Assembly: GCA_021295675.1 (NCBI GenBank)
Contig: JAGWBY010000052.1
Span: 39,288-47,023 of the forward strand
Length of the DNA stretch: 7,736 bases
Source: Candidatus Latescibacterota bacterium
GTDB taxonomy: Bacteria > Latescibacterota > UBA2968 > UBA8231
Direction of reading: 5' to 3'
Part shown: piece after piece, positions 1 to 7,736 of the stretch
Layout of the letters: the number at the start of each line of letters is the position of its first letter
How positions within the stretch are numbered: position 1 is the stretch's first letter
Made by a program: the position numbers and the translations under genes
Notes under the pieces: generated by a model
The model's database searches: none
Told to the model about the DNA's origin: nothing
The model's input: only the letters and a program-made list of their open reading frames with translations

Positions 1-547
1 CGACGGCCACGATACGCTGTCCGACGAGCCAGGGCAGTACATCAAGGATATGTACCGTCCGCGTATGCAACATACCGCCATCTACTAGGTTACCGCCGGC
101 TCTGCGCTGAACCGCCGTCATGTACTGAATATCATCGGAACTAGAGGCTAACTGACTGCGTACATACTCTGTGCTCGCCATGAAACGCCGCGTGAAAGCT
201 GTCATTAACAGACATTCTTGTGCTTGGCTGAGAGTGGTCAATTCTTTGGCGTGTGCTACTGTGACTGTCGTCGGCTTGTCGACGAGAACGGGTATGCGCC
301 GTTCTAGCGCGAGCTTGCATTGTTCATAGTGATATTGATTTGGGGTGCTGACGACGACACCGTCCACGAGATCGGGGTCAAGCATGGTCTGGCTTGCGCC
401 CAGACTCTCCGGCAGGTTGTCCAGACGATCCTGCGAGATGTCACAGACTGCTGTGATCTCCACGTCCCTCCGCTGGATGAGATTCGGAATGTGATAATTA
501 GGACAGAAACGTCCCACTCCGATCAGGCCGATTCTGGTCTGTTCCAT
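1..547 (-). CDS. Gfo/Idh/MocA-family NAD(P)-dependent oxidoreductase (C-terminus beyond window)
   Basis: The frame is open from an ATG at 547-545 to the left edge, giving 182 complete codons; the 3' end is missing. Residues 6-13 (IGLIGVGR) form the glycine-rich Rossmann nucleotide-binding loop directly after the start. V34-D36 ends the second strand, VVVSTPNQYHY (64-74) is the typical TPN.xH stretch, and VDKPTT (89-94) replaces the usual EKP, keeping Lys91. The catalytic-domain signature GGNLVDGGML...VHILDVLPWLVG lies at 151-176. When aligned on the following Trp, about five extra residues separate Asp156 from His166 compared with the common D-x3-H spacing. The family oxidises or reduces sugars, inositols and related polyols; the substrate cannot be read here. 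The start overlaps the methyltransferase 3' end by 25 bp and has no clear Shine-Dalgarno, which suggests translational coupling. Family assignment is firm; substrate is unknown. Confidence 0.87.
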   Translation of the reverse strand, partial: MEQTRIGLIGVGRFCPNYHIPNLIQRRDVEITAVCDISQDRLDNLPESLGASQTMLDPDLVDGVVVSTPNQYHYEQCKLALERRIPVLVDKPTTVTVAHAKELTTLSQAQECLLMTAFTRRFMASTEYVRSQLASSSDDIQYMTAVQRRAGGNLVDGGMLHTRTVHILDVLPWLVGQRIVAV

Positions 548-1170
548 TTTGTCAGCACCGGTTTTCGCAAAGTGAAAGACTGGAAGTGCACGCCCTCGGG
601 CTCGACTACGTGGAAATCCAAGACATCGAAATACTCCCGTACGTATCCATGCATCTGATCGTCGGTTCGAAAAGAAAAAAATCGAGGAGGATCGTGCCAG
701 TCGTTAGGCGCTTCGCCCTCAAACGGGTCACCCCCGTACACGCCCAAAAAAAAGAGACCGCCTGGAACTAAGACGTTTCGGATCGCAGCCAGTACGTCAG
801 ATAAATTGACATTCGGGACATGAAGCAGGCAATTCATTGCATAAACTGCGTCGAAAGAACTCAGGGGAAAGCCCAAATTTAGAAAGTCAGCCGAGTAAGC
901 CACGAGACCTTTAGCGCGGCAGCGTGCAACCATTTCCGGTGAAAGATCAGTCACAATTGTTTCTAATCCACCTTTCTGGAAAAACAAGCCATCCTGGCCT
1001 GTCCCGGCACCGATCTCCAGAAGACTCACCTTGCCCTCGGTGCGTACGATACTGAGAAAGTCTGCACGCTCAGTCAGCTTCCACGGGGCTTTCTCACGCT
1101 GGTCGCGGTCTTCTGCGCTACCGTCGTAGGCTACTTGAAGACGAGCGACGACATCTTTGTACTCGAACAT
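523..1170 (-). CDS. Class I SAM-dependent methyltransferase
   Basis: This 215-residue protein has the order of motifs of a Rossmann-type (UbiE/Methyltransf_11/25-like) methyltransferase. Motif I is LLEIGAGTG at 50-58 (SAM glycine loop). Acidic D75 ends strand 2 within IVTDLSPEM. D95 in YSADFLNL matches the adenine-contact position. FDAVYAMNCLLHVP at 106-119 is the motif IV region, and LVPGGLFFLGVYGG at 134-147 is the post-motif strand. The last about 70 residues are specific (WHDPPRFFSFRTDD, 158-171) and do not reveal the substrate. The ATG at 1170 is preceded by AT-rich sequence with no convincing ribosome binding site. The 3' end overlaps the following oxidoreductase by 25 bp, so the two probably form one transcript and modify the same small molecule (inference). 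Upstream sequence ends in AACGTTA, the same heptamer as the R' end of two attC sites further right. Family is secure; acceptor substrate is unknown. Confidence 0.87.
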   Translation of the reverse strand: MFEYKDVVARLQVAYDGSAEDRDQREKAPWKLTERADFLSIVRTEGKVSLLEIGAGTGQDGLFFQKGGLETIVTDLSPEMVARCRAKGLVAYSADFLNLGFPLSSFDAVYAMNCLLHVPNVNLSDVLAAIRNVLVPGGLFFLGVYGGDPFEGEAPNDWHDPPRFFSFRTDDQMHGYVREYFDVLDFHVVEPEGVHFQSFTLRKPVLTKWNRPESA

Positions 1171-1233
1171 TGCTTTTTAACGTTTTGCCGGTTTGCGAAC
1201 AGCGGCCGAGTGTTGCCTCAGTTGCTTACTCCT

Positions 1234-1362
1234 TCAATAGGCCAGCAGCAATGAGAGCGCGATGGTGCAGAGGTAGAAAAACGTCCAGCGCCAACTCCGC
1301 AAGGACTCCTTCAGGTTGAACCAGTTTGCGCGCCAGTCTCTCGTGTTCGGGAGCCCACTCAT
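1234..1362 (-). CDS. Possible 42-residue single-span membrane peptide
   Basis: A short frame starts at ATG 1362-1360 and stops at TGA 1236-1234. The N-terminus (MSGLPNTRDWRANWFNLKES) is polar and tryptophan-rich. It is followed by RSWRW and then a hydrophobic stretch, WTFFYLCTIALSLLLAY, to the C-terminus: one predicted transmembrane helix with a basic flank on the probable cytoplasmic side. By hand count 35 of 42 sense codons end in G or C, in keeping with the GC-rich gene upstream. A competing frame over the same bases (GTG near 1405, about 58 codons, ending LIAAGLLKE) has a less biased third position but a better-placed GGGGA upstream. There is no strong ribosome binding site for the 42-residue frame. 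It lies 51 bp after the secreted-protein gene and could be its partner. No family is recognised, and it may not be translated. Confidence 0.35.
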   Translation of the reverse strand: MSGLPNTRDWRANWFNLKESLRSWRWTFFYLCTIALSLLLAY

Positions 1363-1413
1363 TGAGCTCGACTTTCGCCAGCCAGATGGAGCGAACCAGC
1401 ACTAATTCCCCGT

Positions 1414-2340
1414 TCAGTATGCTACAGCGACGGGCTGCAGGCGGATCTCACTGCCCTTATCCGTCTCTACTTCCACCCGCGCCAGATAGATGCCAGGGCC
1501 GACCAGCTGTCCGGCTCCATCCCGACCGTCCCAGCGGGCCATATGGCGCCCCGCGGCCTGAGCCTCTGGCTGCGCCTGCCATATCCGCCGTCCGTTTAGG
1601 GCATAGATGCCGACCTTTACCGCGGACGCCTGCTGCACCCGGAACAAGGTATACTGGATGGATAACTGGTCGTTGACGCCGTCCCCCTGAGGGGTAAAAG
1701 CGCGGCTCCCCACCTCGAGATCCTCCAGAACTCCCCTTGCCGAGGAGGCCGACGCCACAAGCTCCTCGCTGACATCACCGCCTTCGACCCGCTGCAACAA
1801 GCTCTGTTCCCCGCGGTTGAAGACCTCCCCGCCGAACTCGCCGGCCTCGTCGTAGAGCACTGTTTCCAGCCCAATGCGCAGCCTCTGATCGCCCTCTGGA
1901 CTCAAACGGCGGGGCAAAAATACAACAAAACCGCTTTCCTCGTTCGCGATGCTGTCCGGTTCCACAGTGCCCAATGGCTCACCTATCTCCAGCCAGCCGA
2001 ACTCCGCTTCCGCCGGCGTCATGACCCGCACGACATCGAAGCCGGTGCGATCCGCGCTGGAAAATTCAACGCCAATATCGTACACGAACGACTTTTTCTC
2101 GCCCGCCGGTACGCGCACTCGCCCGCCCTGCGGCTGGTGATCTTCCTCCAGGACCACCTCGCCCACGACCCGATCCGCCAACAGCGGCGCGATCTCGACC
2201 TGCAGCGAATCCAGCCGGGCAAAGTCAAAGAACGCATCCGTCTTTAGCTGCACCCGCAGCTGAAAGTAGCGCCCCCACGGCAGGCGCGGGTGCTGCCCCG
2301 ACTCCTCGAGTGGCACCGACCAGAAACTCCAGTTTTTCAC
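1414..2340 (-). CDS. C-terminal part of a secreted protein with FlgD/CHU_C-like Ig domain (separated by a probable frameshift)
   Basis: This frame of 308 codons begins at a GTG (2340-2338), but the frame is already open from about 2395, where an in-frame TGA closes it. Residues such as NWSFWSVPLEES (3-14) and GRYFQLRVQL (23-32) read like the continuation of a beta-rich extracellular domain, not like a start. Residues 50-200 are further beta-rich repeats without catalytic motifs. From 214 onward AFTPQGDGVNDQLSIQYTL, VGIYALNGRRIW, WDGRDGAGQLVGPGIYLARVEV form an Ig-like domain of the FlgD/CHU_C kind, known from bacterial secreted proteins and sorting C-termini. It overlaps the upstream 432-codon frame by 116 bp. 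In that overlap this frame looks protein-like while the other becomes low-complexity (Gly/Ala/Val), so I infer one original gene of roughly 690 residues (1414-3523) broken by a +1-type shift or a sequencing error. Likely role: extracellular carbohydrate or surface binding (inference only). Confidence 0.78.
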   Translation of the reverse strand: MKNWSFWSVPLEESGQHPRLPWGRYFQLRVQLKTDAFFDFARLDSLQVEIAPLLADRVVGEVVLEEDHQPQGGRVRVPAGEKKSFVYDIGVEFSSADRTGFDVVRVMTPAEAEFGWLEIGEPLGTVEPDSIANEESGFVVFLPRRLSPEGDQRLRIGLETVLYDEAGEFGGEVFNRGEQSLLQRVEGGDVSEELVASASSARGVLEDLEVGSRAFTPQGDGVNDQLSIQYTLFRVQQASAVKVGIYALNGRRIWQAQPEAQAAGRHMARWDGRDGAGQLVGPGIYLARVEVETDKGSEIRLQPVAVAY

Positions 2341-3523
2341 GGAATCCCACCGTCGGCACCGTAGCGCCGCGCGCCTCCAGTCTAGATATGGAACTGATCA
2401 AGGTCGCTCTCGGCACGGAGGAAGTCAGCCGTTCCCACTGTTTCTTGGTCACCTCCACGTGGGCTCCCAGATCGTCAAAGCCGAAGTAAGCCGTCGGAGT
2501 GTCATCGCGACCCGTCCTGATCTCCACCTGGACGCGAACCGGACCGTCCGCGAGGGCGACCAACTGCTCCCCGTCCTTGCGCCACTTGCTCACCTCGAAG
2601 ACCACTCGCCCGAAGTTGGCCTCCCGCCCCAGGTCCACTATCTGCGACTCCCAGGTCGCCGTAGGCGCAAAACCCCGGCCGTAAACCTCCATCTCCGCAT
2701 AAGCCGACTGGACGACGATCGGCTGACCGTCCAAAGTGACTCCGTCGGGGACTTCCAGCAGGCGCAAATAGCGCAAATTCTGCAGCGGGAAGCGGACCTC
2801 GGTGACGCTGTCGCGGTTGGCTTGGCGGTAGGCTAGCTGATTTTCCAGCGGGCAGCAGAAGCCCGCCCCGCGCCATCTGAAGCCCCGCGCCATCTCCTCT
2901 TCCATTATACCTCCCTCGTCCTCGCGGGCTGTCAGGCTGAATGATTTGAGGACATAGTTGAGACGAAAGGGCTGGTCGCTGTCGGGGCTCACCCCCTCGG
3001 GAGGGTAGAACACAAAGCGCTCCACCGGCACCTGTGCGCCCATATCTATCGTGTAATAGAAAGACGATCCCGATGGTGGGCGGCTGCGCGGGTCGGCGAC
3101 CTCGTCCCTGCGCTCGACGTAGGTGGCGGGATCGCCGTCTACGAAGACGAGGAGGTTGGCCTGGTACAAAATGCCATAATTCCCGAGGTTCTCGTCGCGG
3201 CTTTTCAATAGAAAGTTGCCGTGTCCCAGCCACAAACGCGGATGACCCGGGTGGTAAACCGGGTCGAAGGTGAACCTGAAGGGTTGCCAGGGTCCCAACC
3301 GAGGCAAGAGGTTCTCGTCCGGCTTGAGCTCGAAAGGCTGGAGCGCCCCGGCCGCGGTCGAGTCGTCCGTCATCAGGCTGAAATCCGCTACTTCCGTCCA
3401 GGAAACGCCGCCCTCTCCTCCGAGCCGCCACCAATTTTCTTGGGCCGCCCCATGGCTGCAAAACCCTGCAATCCCACCCAGCACGGCAAAGGCCAAAATC
3501 GCCACTTTCGCGTTTATCCGCAC
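2225..3523 (-). CDS. N-terminal part of a secreted, discoidin-like protein (3' end probably out of frame)
   Basis: The 432-codon frame starts at GTG 3523-3521; an in-frame TAG at 3541-3539 excludes any useful earlier start. Residues 1-27 are a classical signal peptide: RINAK, hydrophobic VAILAFAVLGGIAG, then a probable cleavage after SHGAA. The mature part contains FYYTIDMGAQVPVERFVFYPPEG (about 157-179) and a second YAEMEVYGRGFAPTATWESQIVDLG block (about 275-299). These resemble F5/8-type (discoidin) jelly-roll repeats that bind sugars. Beyond about residue 385 the sequence turns into LEARGATVPTVGF and a Gly/Ala/Val-rich tail. That tail looks like an out-of-frame reading of the neighbouring 308-codon frame, so the true C-terminus is probably encoded there. 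The start lies 7 nt after the phosphotransferase stop. Third positions are very GC-rich, unlike that neighbour. Secretion is well supported; the discoidin call is moderate. Confidence 0.75.
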   Translation of the reverse strand: MRINAKVAILAFAVLGGIAGFCSHGAAQENWWRLGGEGGVSWTEVADFSLMTDDSTAAGALQPFELKPDENLLPRLGPWQPFRFTFDPVYHPGHPRLWLGHGNFLLKSRDENLGNYGILYQANLLVFVDGDPATYVERRDEVADPRSRPPSGSSFYYTIDMGAQVPVERFVFYPPEGVSPDSDQPFRLNYVLKSFSLTAREDEGGIMEEEMARGFRWRGAGFCCPLENQLAYRQANRDSVTEVRFPLQNLRYLRLLEVPDGVTLDGQPIVVQSAYAEMEVYGRGFAPTATWESQIVDLGREANFGRVVFEVSKWRKDGEQLVALADGPVRVQVEIRTGRDDTPTAYFGFDDLGAHVEVTKKQWERLTSSVPRATLISSISRLEARGATVPTVGFREKLEFLVGATRGVGAAPAPAVGALLSAAGAAKDGCVL

Positions 3524-3530
3524 CCGAACC

Positions 3531-4523
3531 TCAGGAACCTACAAGGCTTTTTAATCCGCTTTCCAAGTCATCCAGCCATTGCGGCGTTTTGGGGTGAAAG
3601 GCTCCCAACACTTCCCAGAACCAGCACAAACCGGCACCCATGGTGGCTTGTCTGACTTTAAGGTACGTCTCATCTGGTTCTATCCGCACTCCACCTGCCT
3701 CCGCATACCCCGACCAAAACTCCTGCGGATAGTGATCGCGACCATAAATTTCTTGAGGTTCTCGGGTAAACTCTGCTGCGATATGCAGTTGTTCATGTAG
3801 AAGGTCGCCAGTCGCTCCATTCTCAAAATCGTAAATGCCGACTATATGGCCATCATCATCAACCAAAAGATTGTGTATAGTTGCATCTCCCCATAGAAGC
3901 CCTTGAGGACTCGGATTCGGCACGACATCAATCTTGTCCAGCAGATCTTCGATAATGGACAGCTTGGCTTGACAATCTTCGGGCAGGTCAGCTACCAAGT
4001 CCTGATTGTAAAGGAGCTTTCTCCGTATGTCTTCTCGCCATTGGGTCACATCCTGCACGGGTAGAAGACCGTCGGATACTCTCTGTTCATTGATGGCAGC
4101 GACCACTGAGCCAAATTCTTTGAGCAGGCGACACCGCCGATCATCGCTAGTACTGGGCATCTCGAAAAAGTCTCGTCCTTGAGTACCGGGGAGCAGACTA
4201 GAAATCAGATAAGGATATCCGAACGCATCGGTGTCCTCGCATAATAGACTGATCTCCGGGACGGGCAGAGTGGTTGTATCGCGTAACAATGCGGTAATAT
4301 TGAAATCGACCGCTAGCGAGAAGGCTTTTCGATACTTGATCTTGATCACATAGCTGCCGTCGCAACACACGGCCTTATAGACACAGTTGGTTGGATTTGC
4401 TTTAAGTTCAGTCCATTCGATAACCGAGCCGAGCCCCTGTCTAGCAAAAGCCACGGCTCCCTGCTCAGCAGTAAAGGTCGGCTTTTTGGAGGCTTCTATA
4501 AATGCTTGCTTGCTGATCGCCAA
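3531..4523 (-). CDS. APH-family (kinase-like) phosphotransferase
   Basis: This 330-residue protein has the layout of the APH phosphotransferase family (aminoglycoside, choline and homoserine kinase relatives). SYVIKIKYR at 57-65 carries the ATP-binding Lys (K61 or K63). GYPYLISSLLPG at 102-113 is the hinge region. LLWGDATIHNLLV at 209-221 is the catalytic (Brenner) loop with Asp213 and Asn218, Trp replacing the usual His before Gly-Asp. GIYDFENGATGD at 229-240 supplies the metal-binding Asp232. The only sensible start is TTG at 4523-4521, 7 nt after a CGGAG ribosome binding site; there is no in-frame ATG near it. It follows the dioxygenase by 41 bp, so co-transcription is likely. Codon composition is AT-richer than the secreted-protein gene downstream. 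The substrate is unknown: it could be an antibiotic, a sugar or an amino alcohol. Resistance should not be assumed. Confidence 0.87.
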   Translation of the reverse strand: MAISKQAFIEASKKPTFTAEQGAVAFARQGLGSVIEWTELKANPTNCVYKAVCCDGSYVIKIKYRKAFSLAVDFNITALLRDTTTLPVPEISLLCEDTDAFGYPYLISSLLPGTQGRDFFEMPSTSDDRRCRLLKEFGSVVAAINEQRVSDGLLPVQDVTQWREDIRRKLLYNQDLVADLPEDCQAKLSIIEDLLDKIDVVPNPSPQGLLWGDATIHNLLVDDDGHIVGIYDFENGATGDLLHEQLHIAAEFTREPQEIYGRDHYPQEFWSGYAEAGGVRIEPDETYLKVRQATMGAGLCWFWEVLGAFHPKTPQWLDDLESGLKSLVGS

Positions 4524-4564
4524 ATCTACGCTCCGATATACTGTAACTTTCTCGATGTGCTAAC

Positions 4565-5338
4565 CTAGGCTTGTTCGCGCCATATTCGCTTGGCCAACAT
4601 GAACCTAGGCACTTTTGCAGCGTTCTGAGACCGAGCGTGTACGATCAGCGGATGGCAGAGCACGGCATCGCCTGGCTCTCCCGTAAGTTCAACAACCCTA
4701 ACCTTTATATTCTCAATTTCTGCATTCTGCTCCATCAGACGAGCAACTCGTTCGTTCATCGGTCCTGTGTTGTTCCGTAGATCCACCAGCCATGGGTGCG
4801 CTTTGAAGAACGTATTGTGGCCCTCCTTAGCCTCTACACTCCGGCGATGATATCGCAAGAGGAGCTTATGGGCTCCCTCCAGAATAAGCGTTCCACCCCC
4901 TTGCGGTAAGACGTGGGAAATAAAAATAAAGATGAACAGACCTTCTTTCCCATTTATGATTTCCAACGGATCTGAGTCCCAGTGCCATCCCGTCGGAATA
5001 TTCCACATATCGGGGGATTCAGGCATCGTGTGGAGCAAGGTGCCCCAGTGGGTGGGTGATTTCCAGCTCGGACCTAGGAGCTGGGTGATCGCATATGTGA
5101 TCTTCTGGTCGCCAATATTCCAAAGGTCTCGGTTCGCTTGCAGTATCTTGATGAGTCCTTTTGTCGGGCGATTCCAGGTTGAGGAATCTTCGCGATCGAA
5201 GCCGTATCTCTGCTCAAGTATTTCCCATATGTACGTCATCACGCGGTGCGTAAGTGTGCGATCAAAAGCCGATTCGAGGCGGACGTACCCGTTCAGATGG
5301 AAGCGTTCAATGTCCTCTTGAGAGAGAATTTGATTCAT
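4565..5338 (-). CDS. Phytanoyl-CoA dioxygenase (PhyH)-family Fe(II)/2-oxoglutarate oxygenase
   Basis: I place the start at ATG 5338-5336 (MNQILSQEDIERF), giving 257 residues. An earlier start at 5446 would add 36 residues that are only a translation of the attC site. The iron ligands are visible: His119-x-Asp121 in TGWHWDSDP and the distal His234 in LCHPLIVHARSQN. Arg245 lies exactly 11 residues after His234, the spacing between the iron His and the 2-oxoglutarate-binding Arg in human PHYH (H264/R275). The N-terminal helix FHLNGYVRLESAF is also typical of the family. Such enzymes hydroxylate or halogenate small molecules and lipids; the substrate here is unknown. The gene begins about 31 nt after the last attC-like site and precedes the phosphotransferase by 41 bp. 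Assignment to the superfamily is strong. Confidence 0.92.
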   Translation of the reverse strand: MNQILSQEDIERFHLNGYVRLESAFDRTLTHRVMTYIWEILEQRYGFDREDSSTWNRPTKGLIKILQANRDLWNIGDQKITYAITQLLGPSWKSPTHWGTLLHTMPESPDMWNIPTGWHWDSDPLEIINGKEGLFIFIFISHVLPQGGGTLILEGAHKLLLRYHRRSVEAKEGHNTFFKAHPWLVDLRNNTGPMNERVARLMEQNAEIENIKVRVVELTGEPGDAVLCHPLIVHARSQNAAKVPRFMLAKRIWREQA

Positions 5339-5368
5339 CGATGAAGTCACATTTCCTTGGGTATTTTT

Positions 5369-5456
5369 GGCTAACGTTCCCGGCACCCACGAACCGCGCC
5401 GCGCCGCGGTTGGGCGAAGGGGCTTTTGCCCCGAAGCCGGGGGCACGGTGTTATGG
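5369..5456 (-). other. attC-like integron recombination site 1
   Basis: Read on the minus strand, the site begins with R'' CCATAAC (5456-5450) and ends with R' GTTAGCC (5375-5369), the preceding bases being AAC. L'' (GTGCCCCCG) and L' (CGTGGGTGC) can pair with one mismatch when G-T wobbles are allowed. Inside are two hairpins: GGGGC-AAAA-GCCCC and an AACCGC/GCGGTT stem with an enlarged GC loop. R'' with its upstream bases (GCCCATAAC) is the exact reverse complement of the first nine bases of the CHAT cassette, as expected for a cassette's own attC. This is the last attC of the array seen in the window. Confidence 0.82.
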
Positions 5457-6670
5457 GCTGTGGAATAGACGCACTCTTACGATTCCTGGCGGCAACAAGC
5501 GCTCCCCGAAGAAAATAAAATCTACAGGGACTCTGCCGAAGTGGATCAAGTCGCAGCAGATCTCTCCGATCAGTTTAGTCGATACACTCTAAACGGAAAG
5601 GCGCGCACCATCGCAAGGCGAAAATCGTCTCCTTGATCGGTGTAGTGTTCATACAGCGTCTTTCGCGTCACAAAGAGGGCATTGGCAGGAGGTTCTCCCT
5701 CGCGTAAGGCACTAAAAAAACGCTCTATGGTCTTTGTGGAGGATTCGCCGGACTCATTGCTTAGAATCGGAGCGACATAATAGAGGGTGCCCGTCCGATA
5801 CAGGCTGTGGAGGAACCCGCGATGGAGACCCAGTTCGCAAGAATCAAAATAGACAAGCTGGGGAGCCATGTGGACGAACGTCTCAGGGTGAATTGCAATG
5901 TGTGCCAGATCGATGCCGTCGTTTGCATCACCGTGACCACTGATCAGAACAAAATCAGCCGCTGCGATACTTTCCAAATCCTTGGGGTGGACCTCAAGGT
6001 CGTCATAGTAGATCGAACGAGGGAAGAGACGCTTCACCGATAAGAGGGCCCGTTCAGGATCGGACGACTCGTGCGAGATGAGCAGCCCTTTCCACTGGTC
6101 CGAAACCTGGAGAAGCGTATCCGAGTGACTGTGCAGACGATACGTAATGGGCTTGTCGAGAAACAGTGGGCACCCCTGATAATACAGCGCGTCCAGGGGA
6201 TAGGACAGACAGTCCTCCGCCAGCACAAACTCAATGGCCGATGCCGATTTAATCGATGCCTGAATAGGGGCATACAGATCCTGTCCCACTTCTGTGAGCA
6301 AGGTGTGTATGTCTGACCGTCTGATGGCCTTCAGGTCGGTATCCGCGAACAGATCGGCGAAGAATCCGCATATCGAGTCCAGCAGGGCCAATAGGGACGG
6401 CCTCGGGTTCAGCGATTTGTAGATGGCTTTCATCTTAGCGGGGACATTCCGCTGCTCAGGCACAGCATACCTGTGCGTCCCACCATCTAAAGCCGCCTGG
6501 ACATCGAGCACCTGTCGCTTCTGCTGGACATGGATAACCAGCGTCTCTGCACTATTCGAAGCCATTGTACCTTTCTAATCGCTATCTCACGCTCCAACTT
6601 AGCGGGGTCGGATTCCGGTCGAAAGCTTCTTAGAAATCTGCGATTCTACGGTTCTGCCCATGGCCCATAA
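5375..6670 (-). mobile_element. Integron-type gene cassette carrying the CHAT protease
   Basis: The cassette runs from the T after the G of R' in site 2 (6670) to the G of R' in site 1 (5375), 1296 bp. It starts TTATGGGCC after G and ends in an attC whose R'' is GCCCATAAC, so the ends match over nine bases, the signature of a circularisable cassette. It holds one gene, a leader of about 100 bases before it and about 113 bases between the stop and R''. The leader is longer than the 18 nt seen in the neighbouring cassette and could contain a cassette promoter, but I see no convincing -35/-10 pair. Confidence 0.78.
5570..6565 (-). CDS. Stand-alone CHAT-domain protein (caspase-like cysteine protease)
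   Basis: The protein has 331 residues and starts at ATG 6565-6563, with AGAAAGG six to seven bases upstream as ribosome binding site. The C-terminal two thirds match the CHAT fold (caspase/HetF-associated; a clan CD protease relative). LSYPLDALYYQGCPLFLDKPITYRL (120-144) is the family's P-x-[ED]-x-L entry segment. VLISGHGDAND (206-216) gives catalytic His211, and VYFDSCELG (238-246) gives catalytic Cys243, each after a hydrophobic strand as in caspases. SSTKTIERFFSALREGEPPANAL (275-297) is the typical helix after the active site. The first about 95 residues have no recognised domain, and no TPRs or transmembrane segment are present. CHAT proteases in bacteria act in gasdermin activation, type III-E CRISPR (TPR-CHAT) and other programmed responses; a defensive role here is inference. 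Both dyad residues are intact, so the enzyme is probably active. It is the sole gene of an integron-type cassette. Confidence 0.87.
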   Translation of the reverse strand: MASNSAETLVIHVQQKRQVLDVQAALDGGTHRYAVPEQRNVPAKMKAIYKSLNPRPSLLALLDSICGFFADLFADTDLKAIRRSDIHTLLTEVGQDLYAPIQASIKSASAIEFVLAEDCLSYPLDALYYQGCPLFLDKPITYRLHSHSDTLLQVSDQWKGLLISHESSDPERALLSVKRLFPRSIYYDDLEVHPKDLESIAAADFVLISGHGDANDGIDLAHIAIHPETFVHMAPQLVYFDSCELGLHRGFLHSLYRTGTLYYVAPILSNESGESSTKTIERFFSALREGEPPANALFVTRKTLYEHYTDQGDDFRLAMVRAFPFRVYRLN

Positions 6671-6747
6671 CGTTTCCGTGTCCCCGAACCGCGTAGCGGT
6701 TGGGCGAGGGGCCGCACTGCCTCGAGCCGGGGGCACAGGTGTTAGCC
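6665..6747 (-). other. attC-like integron recombination site 2
   Basis: Read on the minus strand, R'' is GGCTAAC (6747-6741) and R' is GTTATGG (6671-6665), preceded by AAC. L'' GTGCCCCCG pairs with L' CGGGGACAC with one mismatch. The interior carries the AACCGC-TAC-GCGGTT hairpin shared with the other two sites, and the conserved CGCCCAACCGC block. The R'' region GTCGGCTAAC overlaps the stop codon (TAA) of the nucleotidyltransferase gene and is the exact reverse complement of the ten bases that begin that cassette. Confidence 0.85.
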
Positions 6748-7353
6748 GACGGTCACACCCTTGCTCTTCATTTGTTCTTTAAAGCTATCAAAGTCCTCAA
6801 CGCCTTGTTCTATCACCGCACGGTATATATCTTGGCTCGTATAAGCCTTGCGATAGCCAGGATCCTTCCAACAGACCTGTTTGATACTGAGAATCTTACG
6901 ACGAAATGAAGGCGTCAGAGACGCTGCGAGTCGTCGGGTGAACTGAAGTTGCCTCTCGCATTCTTGGGAATCAACGGCCCAAATATCGATCTTCCAGGCA
7001 CCTTTCCTCTCGTCTCCAAGATAGACACCCCAATAAAAACCTAGCGGCAAATTCGGTGTCCGATTAATACGTTCATTGCGAAAACTCATTTTTACTGGAG
7101 CTAGGTATGATGCAATCCTACCTCCTAAAGAAAAGAACGATTCCTCAGATAGATATGTCTGTTCGAGATAGATATCGAGATCCTTCCAGGTCATAAGGTG
7201 TAGGGCGTAACTACCCGTGACGTGGGGAGTACCGTAGTCTTCGAGTAAGCTTCTCAACCCTTTGGGTCCAAGGAGTTCATCGGCTTCCTTACGAATTACT
7301 TGATCGCGCTGAACAAGATCTTCAGTCATTACCAAATCCTGAGTGTCGGCTAA
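6671..7353 (-). mobile_element. Integron-type gene cassette carrying a nucleotidyltransferase-fold gene
   Basis: The unit extends from the base after the G of R' in site 3 (7353) to the G of R' in site 2 (6671), 683 bp. It begins GTTAGCCGAC (counting the G of the preceding R') and ends with an attC beginning GTCGGCTAAC, a perfect ten-base inverted match. The single gene fills it almost completely, with an 18-nt leader and its stop codon inside R''. This compact layout is typical of promoterless cassettes. Confidence 0.82.
6742..7329 (-). CDS. Nucleotidyltransferase-fold protein of unknown specificity
   Basis: I choose ATG 7329-7327 as the start (195 residues) because AGGA lies seven bases before it; a TTG two codons earlier would be too close to that site. 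VTGSYALHLMTWKDLDIYLE (37-56) has the GS-x(n)-D-x-D arrangement of the polymerase-beta nucleotidyltransferase fold, with Gly39, Ser40, Asp50 and Asp52. WKIDIWAVD (112-120) offers a third metal-binding acid, Asp115. The rest (FRNERINRTPNLPLGFYWGVYL) looks specific but is not a family I can name. Members of the fold include antibiotic adenylyltransferases (often cassette-borne), MNT antitoxins and AMPylating proteins. The small size (195) is below usual CD-NTases. The gene fills its integron cassette and stops inside the attC R'' box. The fold call is moderate; any antibiotic or toxin-antitoxin function is speculation. Confidence 0.66.
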   Translation of the reverse strand: MTEDLVQRDQVIRKEADELLGPKGLRSLLEDYGTPHVTGSYALHLMTWKDLDIYLEQTYLSEESFFSLGGRIASYLAPVKMSFRNERINRTPNLPLGFYWGVYLGDERKGAWKIDIWAVDSQECERQLQFTRRLAASLTPSFRRKILSIKQVCWKDPGYRKAYTSQDIYRAVIEQGVEDFDSFKEQMKSKGVTVG

Positions 7354-7429
7354 CGGTCCGCGCGTGCCCGAACCGCGCAGCGGTTGGGCGAAGGCCGAAA
7401 GGCCGGAGCCGGGAACGCTGCTGTTATAC
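7348..7429 (-). other. attC-like integron recombination site 3
   Basis: Read on the minus strand, R'' is GTATAAC (7429-7423) and R' is GTTAGCC (7354-7348). L'' GCGTTCCCG pairs with L' CGGGCACGC with one mismatch. Two internal hairpins follow: GGCC-TTTC-GGCC and AACCGC-TGC-GCGGTT. It lies 26 bp after the stop of the DUF402-like gene, so it is that gene's attC. From the rule seen in the other two cassettes, the DUF402 cassette should begin with GTTATAC outside the window. Confidence 0.85.
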
Positions 7430-7455
7430 GATTGCCACCAATAATACTTAAATGG

Positions 7456-7736
7456 TCAGTGTTTATCCCAGTCGCATGGAACAAGAGGGACTGGCCAGTC
7501 GGGATCTGGTTGCCACCTAGACCAGTCCTCGAAGAATGGCCAAGAGCGATTCTTGAGGGCTTCTCCGACGGTGTTGGCCTCCGACTTAGCAAATGAGGCC
7601 TCATCAGCAGATACAATGCCTTCATCCTGAGCCCATTGGAGCTCGTCCTCATCTTTCAGGCACCAAGAGGACAGATCGTCAGCGACTGTCACATCCAGAA
7701 TCAGGTCCCGAGTATCGAACCCGATGGGCGTGCGAA
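7456..7736 (-). CDS. DUF402 / FomD-like phosphohydrolase, C-terminal part (5' end beyond window)
   Basis: The frame is open from the right edge to TGA at 7458-7456; 92 complete codons are visible. An internal GTG at 7692 would give a 78-codon product, but the frame continues upstream with matching sequence (TPIGFDTRDLILD), so the true gene is truncated by the window. The visible part resembles the DUF402 family end. DLILDVTVADDLSSW is the last barrel strands with metal-ligand Asp residues, WCLKDEDELQWAQDEG is the conserved KDEDEL segment, a helix SADEASFAKSEANTVGEAL follows, and a Trp/Pro-rich tail (EDWSRWQPDPDWPVP) is typical. Characterised relatives hydrolyse nucleoside di- or triphosphates or cytidylyl-phosphonates (FomD). 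This copy's substrate is unknown. It sits in an integron-type cassette upstream of the nucleotidyltransferase cassette. Family assignment is good; activity is inferred. Confidence 0.78.
   Translation of the reverse strand, partial: RTPIGFDTRDLILDVTVADDLSSWCLKDEDELQWAQDEGIVSADEASFAKSEANTVGEALKNRSWPFFEDWSRWQPDPDWPVPLVPCDWDKH

Follow-up and report, generated by a model that had tools for sequence, protein, structure and literature searches.

Passages of PMC7790495 propose that integrons originated from the acquisition, by a tyrosine recombinase, of the I2 helix, the part that docks the folded single-stranded attC site of a cassette, and its authors mention there a lack of intermediates. Clusters of attC sites lacking an integrase (CALINs) are among the closest described relatives of the locus reported here, and a trans-acting integrase may mobilise their cassettes (parts of PMC9024848 and PMC9668308). 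We analysed a 7,736-nucleotide stretch of DNA (the window) from a Candidatus Latescibacterota bacterium (GCA_021295675.1, contig JAGWBY010000052.1, positions 39,288 to 47,023). The window resembles a CALIN, as part of the IntegronFinder definition describes it (PMC9024848), in its close attC-type sites (at least two), its single-gene cassettes pointing in one direction, the absence of a nearby intI and its chromosomal location. It is almost certainly a cassette array of integron type whose locus lacks an integrase. Comparative sequence evidence further suggests that this array was likely built by a lineage carrying a sister of the classical integron integrase IntI that lacks the I2 region (hereafter the I2-less recombinase).

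We identified three attC-type sites on the minus strand of the window, all inside 2.1 kb and thus at least two within 4 kb of each other. Site S3 (7429-7348) forms the 3′ end of a FomD-like cassette and consists of an R″ box (GTATAAC, 7429-7423), two apical hairpins and an R′ box (GTTAGCC, 7354-7348). Site S2 (6747-6665) ends a nucleotidyltransferase-like (NTase) cassette, with R″ GGCTAAC (6747-6741) and R′ GTTATGG (6671-6665). Site S1 (5456-5369) ends a CHAT-like cassette, with R″ CCATAAC (5456-5450) and R′ GTTAGCC (5375-5369). A first-pass annotation made from the letters alone had reported these sites, and their coordinates and letters, like those of the end matches described below, proved correct on re-reading.

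Circularisation of units and their insertion at R′ would require each R″ to match the first bases of its own cassette. R″ pairs with the R′ of its own cassette in both complete window cassettes (2/2): GTTAGCCGAC at 7354-7345 is the reverse complement of the R″ region at 6741-6750, and GTTATGGGC at 6671-6663 matches the R″ region at 5450-5458. These matches span 10 and 9 bases; in both, the next two bases are mismatched and the following three match again. The first-pass annotation had claimed this own-end match, which we re-found and extended past the R box, and had also claimed that the R″ and R′ of one site differ, as they do on re-reading. Cassette boundaries were placed at GTT. Among 63 neighbouring pairs from 105 sites, the own-end match over positions 4-10 averaged 4.67 of 7, compared with 3.25 across all pairs and 3.43 inside single sites, and none of 10,000 permutations reached the observed value. 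An early count had omitted the 17 of 89 sites without a recognisable box; the final count took all 105, and 37 of the 63 pairs passed a filter on positions 4-8. The order predicted in the first pass for units that circularise and insert at R′ thus holds well beyond the window.

Covariance models recover the same sites. Model R1 was built from 10 sites, including the window's three, and model R2 from 60 sites outside the window that had been gathered with R1. With filters off, R2 matches exactly S3 (88.7 bits, E 1e-25), S2 (75.3 bits, E 1.8e-21) and S1 (67.9 bits, E 4e-19) in the window, a covariance test of the kind that the first-pass annotation had proposed. Up to E 1, its sole further match there has 10.7 bits (E 0.57), and on 19 classical-integrase loci it gave four weak matches (best E 0.011). 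At E 0.001, R1 detected the site family in 29 of the 64 phylum genomes. An Rfam scan of the window returned nothing at gathering scores. Compensatory changes occur at 5 of 21 predicted pairs, three in the L″/L′ stem and two in an apical hairpin, in an alignment of 10 sites of which some are near-identical and three come from the window.

A pattern scan for the apical hairpins, with one genome per species, returned 24 stretches. Six were attC-like by eye (L004, L005, L006, L009, L018 and L024) and the other 18 were rejected by eye as not attC. Four of the six come from Latescibacteria/Latescibacterota records and two from metagenome-assembled genomes named Gemmatimonadetes/Gemmatimonadota (G003 and G004), which are listed in the same phylum as genome G001. 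The same type of scan for sites in IMG/VR gave 0 stretches. The window sites do not follow the strict consensus RYYYAAC ... GTTRRRY, given in a part of PMC3053210 that stresses attC diversity: their R′ boxes share only the TAAC/GTTA core with it. The strict consensus is not taken here as defining for integron cassette arrays.

Because the window ends inside its first cassette, relatives were needed for the integrase question. A single chromosomal locus of G001, G002, G003 and G046 aligns with parts of the window's contig at 90-97%, not every part being present in each. The shared flank reaches to about base 4564, and the cassettes past that point vary by genome. FomD sites and cassettes are 97-99% identical in DNA between copies, and the FomD site is followed by five different neighbours (window, L004, L005, L006 and L018). 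The NTase cassette follows FomD in the window and precedes it in G002. The first-pass annotation had suggested that the same cassettes would be found in other orders, and this is borne out; the combination it had named as telling against a cassette array, no covariance match together with a fixed gene order, is the opposite of what we found. In G001 and G003, a PhyH-type gene forms a complete cassette that includes an attC; the window has lost this attC together with the final bases of the array end, and PhyH there runs directly into the fixed flank. In G046 (L122, 1-60), the end of a FomD gene is fused to the flank close to the point at which PhyH joins it in the window, which looks like an independent loss of the array's last attC. 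Family sites occupy five distinct places on the single chromosome of G001; among them is a second FomD cassette near 1.149 Mb.

On the other side, a tRNA-Val gene and a terminator-like hairpin immediately precede the array in G002 and G003, with no integrase gene; the tRNA-Val(gac) region of G002 lies at L111 15980-16056. We found no tyrosine recombinase (Pfam accession PF00589) at the locus in G001, G002 or G003, which have 3, 3 and 8 matches genome-wide, and no gene that separates the array from the fixed flank genes in G002 and G003 was read as an integrase. The three matches in G001, a single contig, are XerD-like, XerC-like and a third recombinase, with counterparts in G002, which also has three. 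Neither G001 nor G002 has an IntI (NCBIfam accession TIGR02249) over cut-off, their three tyrosine recombinases were not read as IntI, and intI is absent from the whole of G001. The absence of a tyrosine recombinase at the locus in G001, G002 and G003 makes the array a CALIN, in agreement with the first-pass suggestion of a cassette cluster without an integrase.

The sites of this family carry a distinctive signature at position 11 of the cassette ends. The family set comprised 94 sites from 32 of 56 sources (L130, with one site, was omitted), giving 54 pairs, of which 34 passed and 33 remained after one duplicate was removed. The classical control comprised 33 pairs from 5 loci (L207, L208, L210, L211 and L212) of 20 fetched; these five were picked because sites had been found there. 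The classical controls of the analysis as a whole were Comamonadaceae-family, Pseudomonas-genus and G060 loci. In the 33 distinct family cassettes, own-end pairing runs to 14-15 bp, past the R box. Position 11 is paired in none of them (0/33), and in 30 of 33 it forms a G·T wobble on the bottom strand: the top strand has A opposite C or C opposite A, a mismatch there and a G·T on the bottom strand. In the classical control, position 11 is paired in 18 of 33 cassettes and a bottom-strand wobble in 4 of 33 (Fisher p 6e-11), and pairing fades after position 12.

Other mispairs in the family also favour bottom-strand wobbles (23 to 6, p 0.002), compared with 20 to 14 in the classical control (p 0.39). 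Folding of the rebuilt site favours the bottom strand in 32 of 33 family and 31 of 33 classical cassettes; for the outer arm alone, the bottom-strand preference holds in 26 of 33 family and 16 of 33 classical cassettes. We rejected the extension of the cassette-end match as new in itself. Classical cassette ends (L208 and others) match over 8-12 bp, beyond the 7-bp R box, and then stop; because classical ends thus pair up to 12 bp too, what sets the family apart is confined to the mismatch at position 11 and the pairing past it. G060 (L135) holds a classical integron in the same phylum, whose sites measure roughly 120-124 nt and whose intI is divergent. Three of six pairs in this array are own-matching and none has A/G at position 11, so the signature is not simply a trait of the phylum.

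The tyrosine recombinase found near signature-bearing arrays groups with IntI, yet lacks the I2 region. The distance from its KDR to its HxLRH motif is 64-65 residues in the 12 of 17 copies that read cleanly, compared with 105-106 in 7 of 14 IntI, and residues 180-238 of the VchIntIA structure (PDB accession 2a3v) have no counterpart in it. The recombinase of genome G037 scores 214.2 bits against TIGR02249, in two stretches and below the cut-off of 265, and 215.7 bits against NCBIfam NF040815 (cut-off 220). The I2-less recombinase also has an extra N-terminal domain. Matches of this N-terminus to HARP (Pfam accession PF07443) are weak, at 14.3-18.1 bits in four of six proteins and absent in two (cut-off 25).

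Homologues of the I2-less recombinase occur in 7 of 64 genomes of the phylum (E 1e-40), in 4 of 396 genomes in the phylum of G070 (L013, in G070, is named Acidobacteria) and in 623 plasmid records (E 1e-30). The six plasmid records inspected out of these 623 are all Bacteroidota (Chryseobacterium, 2; Pontibacter; Rufibacter; Persicobacter, 2). None was found at E 1e-70 among 387 genomes in the phylum of G068, which proves little, and a phage search with the recombinase (P0238) found none. At E 1e-60, 4,726 relatives score. The surroundings of 17 copies were inspected, 7 from this phylum, 4 from the phylum of G070 and 6 from plasmids.

In two genomes the site family lies directly beside this enzyme. 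In G037 and G019, family sites matched by R2 lie downstream of a same-direction tyrosine recombinase, the G019 copy of which is broken. The R′ of the first cassette is 128 bp (G037) and 107 bp (G019) past the end of the recombinase, and in both first cassettes R′ matches the cassette's own R″ with A/G at position 11. R2 matches four sites downstream of the G037 recombinase, one of which was in its training set; in G037 and G019 together it matches seven, three of them from the training set. A chain of four to five cassettes follows the recombinase in G037. In G057, a 14/15 match with A/G at position 11 also follows the recombinase, and the contig ends inside the site.

A first cassette lies 85-132 bp behind the I2-less recombinase at 7 of 14 loci, compared with 2 of 140 mononucleotide shuffles. 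This final chain test scored only positions 4-9 and the L arms. It omitted G054, G011 and G028, which have too little downstream sequence, and comprised 7 loci on the classical side; the first box was sought within 3,000 bp at classical and 400 bp at I2-less loci. Single-cassette chains were discarded when any shuffle equalled them, a rule that eliminated the G060 chain, and distances in G508, G673, G496 and G537 start at the match end instead of the stop codon. An earlier, stricter chain test that required pairing at positions 12-14 (6 of 16 I2-less and 1 of 17 classical loci) was unfair to classical arrays and was replaced. Position 11 of the 12 recombinase-adjacent cassettes is a bottom-strand wobble in 10, paired in 1 and otherwise in 1. 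The wobble thus occurs in 10 of 12 cassettes beside the I2-less recombinase versus 2 of 33 classical cassettes (p 1e-6), with some G037 and G019 rows in common between these 12 and the 33 family cassettes. Pairing at positions 12, 13, 14 and 15 is 0.83, 0.92, 0.92 and 0.75 in the 12 recombinase-adjacent cassettes and 0.61, 0.30, 0.21 and 0.15 in the 33 classical ones. One Chryseobacterium plasmid (L235, 6110-8377) has a long palindrome, starting GTTGGGAAAAATCG, after the recombinase, and it recurs in the array.

These observations suggest that the window's site family probably belongs with the I2-less recombinase rather than with classical IntI, given the shared discriminating signature and the direct adjacency in G037 and G019. 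The I2-less recombinase is the presumed builder because the position-11 wobble is typical of the arrays adjacent to it and not of classical IntI arrays. Cassettes would be excised as circles, with attC folding on the bottom strand, and the circles would be re-inserted at the G^TT of another site. The sister tyrosine recombinase without I2, not classical IntI, would have built the site family, and the window genome would probably have lost this integrase or obtain the enzyme from outside. We lean slightly towards a wider interpretation, in which a second, sister integron lineage exists in at least three phyla and the window is one of its cassette arrays minus the integrase. That lineage would comprise an I2-less integrase with an extra N-terminal domain (perhaps HARP-like and fork-binding), its gene sharing the cassettes' orientation and lying some 85-130 bp ahead of the first one, and attC sites whose recombining strand is marked by a conserved G·T wobble at position 11.

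Several observations weigh against this assignment. Across genomes, the site family and this recombinase occur together no more often than expected by chance (2 of 7 recombinase-bearing genomes, p 0.44): G037 and G019 alone hold both, and in G019 the recombinase is the broken copy. R2 gave no match near the phylum copies in G023, G011, G028, G057 and G054, and 7 of 14 recombinase loci have no recognisable chain. In Pontibacter, whose array the test on positions 4-9 missed, a looser test found all five linked cassettes (5/5) mismatched at position 11 and only two of them with a wobble. The single G496 cassette is doubtful (A/C at position 11 and no pairing at positions 12-15), and the first Chryseobacterium cassette pairs at position 11, where a palindrome artefact is possible. 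Independent arrays are few. The DNA-folding z-scores of single array sites are unremarkable (-0.8 to +0.5), a measure that is uninformative because R″ and R′ in the array belong to different cassettes.

The most serious competing explanation, which we regard as possible though unlikely, is an ordinary CALIN, built by a classical I2-bearing IntI that was later lost, with the wobble as a quirk of the attC sites of this group. CALINs without an integrase are common in bacteria (parts of PMC9024848 and PMC9668308), and classical IntI does occur in the phylum, over the TIGR02249 cut-off in 7 of 64 genomes. Just one of these seven, G019, also has the site family, its IntI-type gene lying on contig C146; G048 combines the site family with an intI that is split over two frames and falls under the cut-off. 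An ordinary CALIN sits poorly with the G060 array, which is classical and from the same phylum yet lacks the position-11 signature, and with the signature's presence beside I2-less recombinases in two other phyla. Moreover, 28 of the 29 site-family genomes have no IntI over cut-off, though many are drafts.

Movement of the cassettes by the host's housekeeping XerC/XerD might account for G001 and G002, which have just XerC-like, XerD-like and a third recombinase, yet shuffled cassettes; we consider it improbable, as Xer-like matches occur in 64 of 64 genomes whether or not the site family is present, and the shuffling may be older than the loss of the integrase. Still less credible, to the point of being negligible, are dispersed hairpin repeats whose gene order was changed by homologous rather than site-specific recombination. 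The FomD copies, 97-99% identical, are long enough for homologous exchange, and array-end deletions did happen in the window and in G046, but the match of R″ to the cassette's own start over 63 pairs, unequalled by permutation, contradicts this explanation, and the boundaries at GTT also speak against it.

All accepted genes of the window are on the minus strand, with single-gene cassettes pointing one way and then flank genes. The gene-to-site geometry of the NTase cassette sets the minus orientation of the array. The first cassette, its 5′ part cut by the window end, carries the FomD-like gene (7456-7734; NCBIfam FomD E 7.6e-18, 64.9 bits, under the cut-off of 320), whose protein is 98-99% identical in L108 and L109 (both G001), L111 (G002) and L113 (G003). 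The second cassette, from R′ to R′ (6671-7354), encodes the 195-amino-acid NTase-like protein (7329-6742). Its gene starts about 20 bases past its R′, and its TAA stop sits inside its R″. The protein has no Pfam family over cut-off, and its naming relies on residues G39-S40, D50 and D52, which are invariant across 12 aligned relatives and which we take to be a nucleotidyltransferase motif. The cassette recurs in G002 at 98.4% identity across 688 bases, and a plasmid search with the protein gave 11 records at 30-32% identity.

The third cassette, again from R′ to R′ (5375-6671), encodes a 331-amino-acid CHAT-like protease (6565-5570). The window protein itself has no Pfam match; 7 of 16 aligned members of its family match CHAT (Pfam accession PF12770, best E 3.8e-9). 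A lone CHAT protease as cassette cargo might, as a guess, be a defence gene. PADLOC found no match among five window proteins, the CHAT-like one included, and a plasmid search with the CHAT-like protein found none. The fourth cassette (4565-5374) is a remnant with its own attC deleted, carrying the PhyH-type dioxygenase gene (5338-4565; Pfam PhyH E 3e-05, 24.8 bits, cut-off 22), a reading that also draws on the relatives. Its joint with the fixed chromosomal flank lies at 4552-4564, where the flank common to G001, G002 and G003 starts. The flank (2-4523), identified from Pfam matches and alignment with relatives, encodes an APH-fold kinase (4523-3531), a FlgD-Ig protein in two frames (3523-1414), a methyltransferase (1170-523) and a Gfo/Idh oxidoreductase (547-2). 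The FlgD-Ig/CHU_C gene (1414-3523) consists of two overlapping frames in the window and one long frame in G001 and G003; the split may reflect a sequencing error or decay.

The window's family shares with the classical integron, represented by VchIntIA (PDB accession 2a3v), the own-end match of R″ and R′, the L″/L′ stem, the bottom-strand bias and the boundary at GTT. It differs in the end match, which in classical arrays ceases after 8-12 bp and often includes a paired position 11 (18/33). The KDR-to-HxLRH stretch is about 41 residues longer in classical IntI, where both are readable, and the IntI gene is divergent to its cassettes in L135 and L208, whereas the I2-less gene runs in the same direction. 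Compared with a CALIN, the family is set apart by own-end pairing of 14-15 bp, the obligatory position-11 mismatch, a two-hairpin apex and an integrase beside its sites that is not a classical IntI.

Other groupings of tyrosine recombinases come close to this enzyme. Passages of PMC8138268 describe an integron-like tyrosine recombinase subgroup in which IntI is grouped with relatives whose insertion is 'not fully conserved'. The I2-less recombinase likewise groups with IntI, and those passages link no insertion-less members to cassette arrays. The G037 recombinase also falls just under the cut-off of NF040815, 'site-specific tyrosine recombinase/integron integrase' (XerA), from which it differs in its extra N-terminal domain and in preceding an attC array. 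No description of an I2-less integron lineage was found in the literature searched, a search that lay outside most subscription papers and all preprints. If such a lineage is real, surveys that define integrons by IntI and a classical attC model may miss it, and arrays like the one in the window would be classed as orphan CALINs. A natural sister enzyme without I2 beside attC-type arrays would then be the missing comparison for classical IntI, and would make the need for I2 directly testable.

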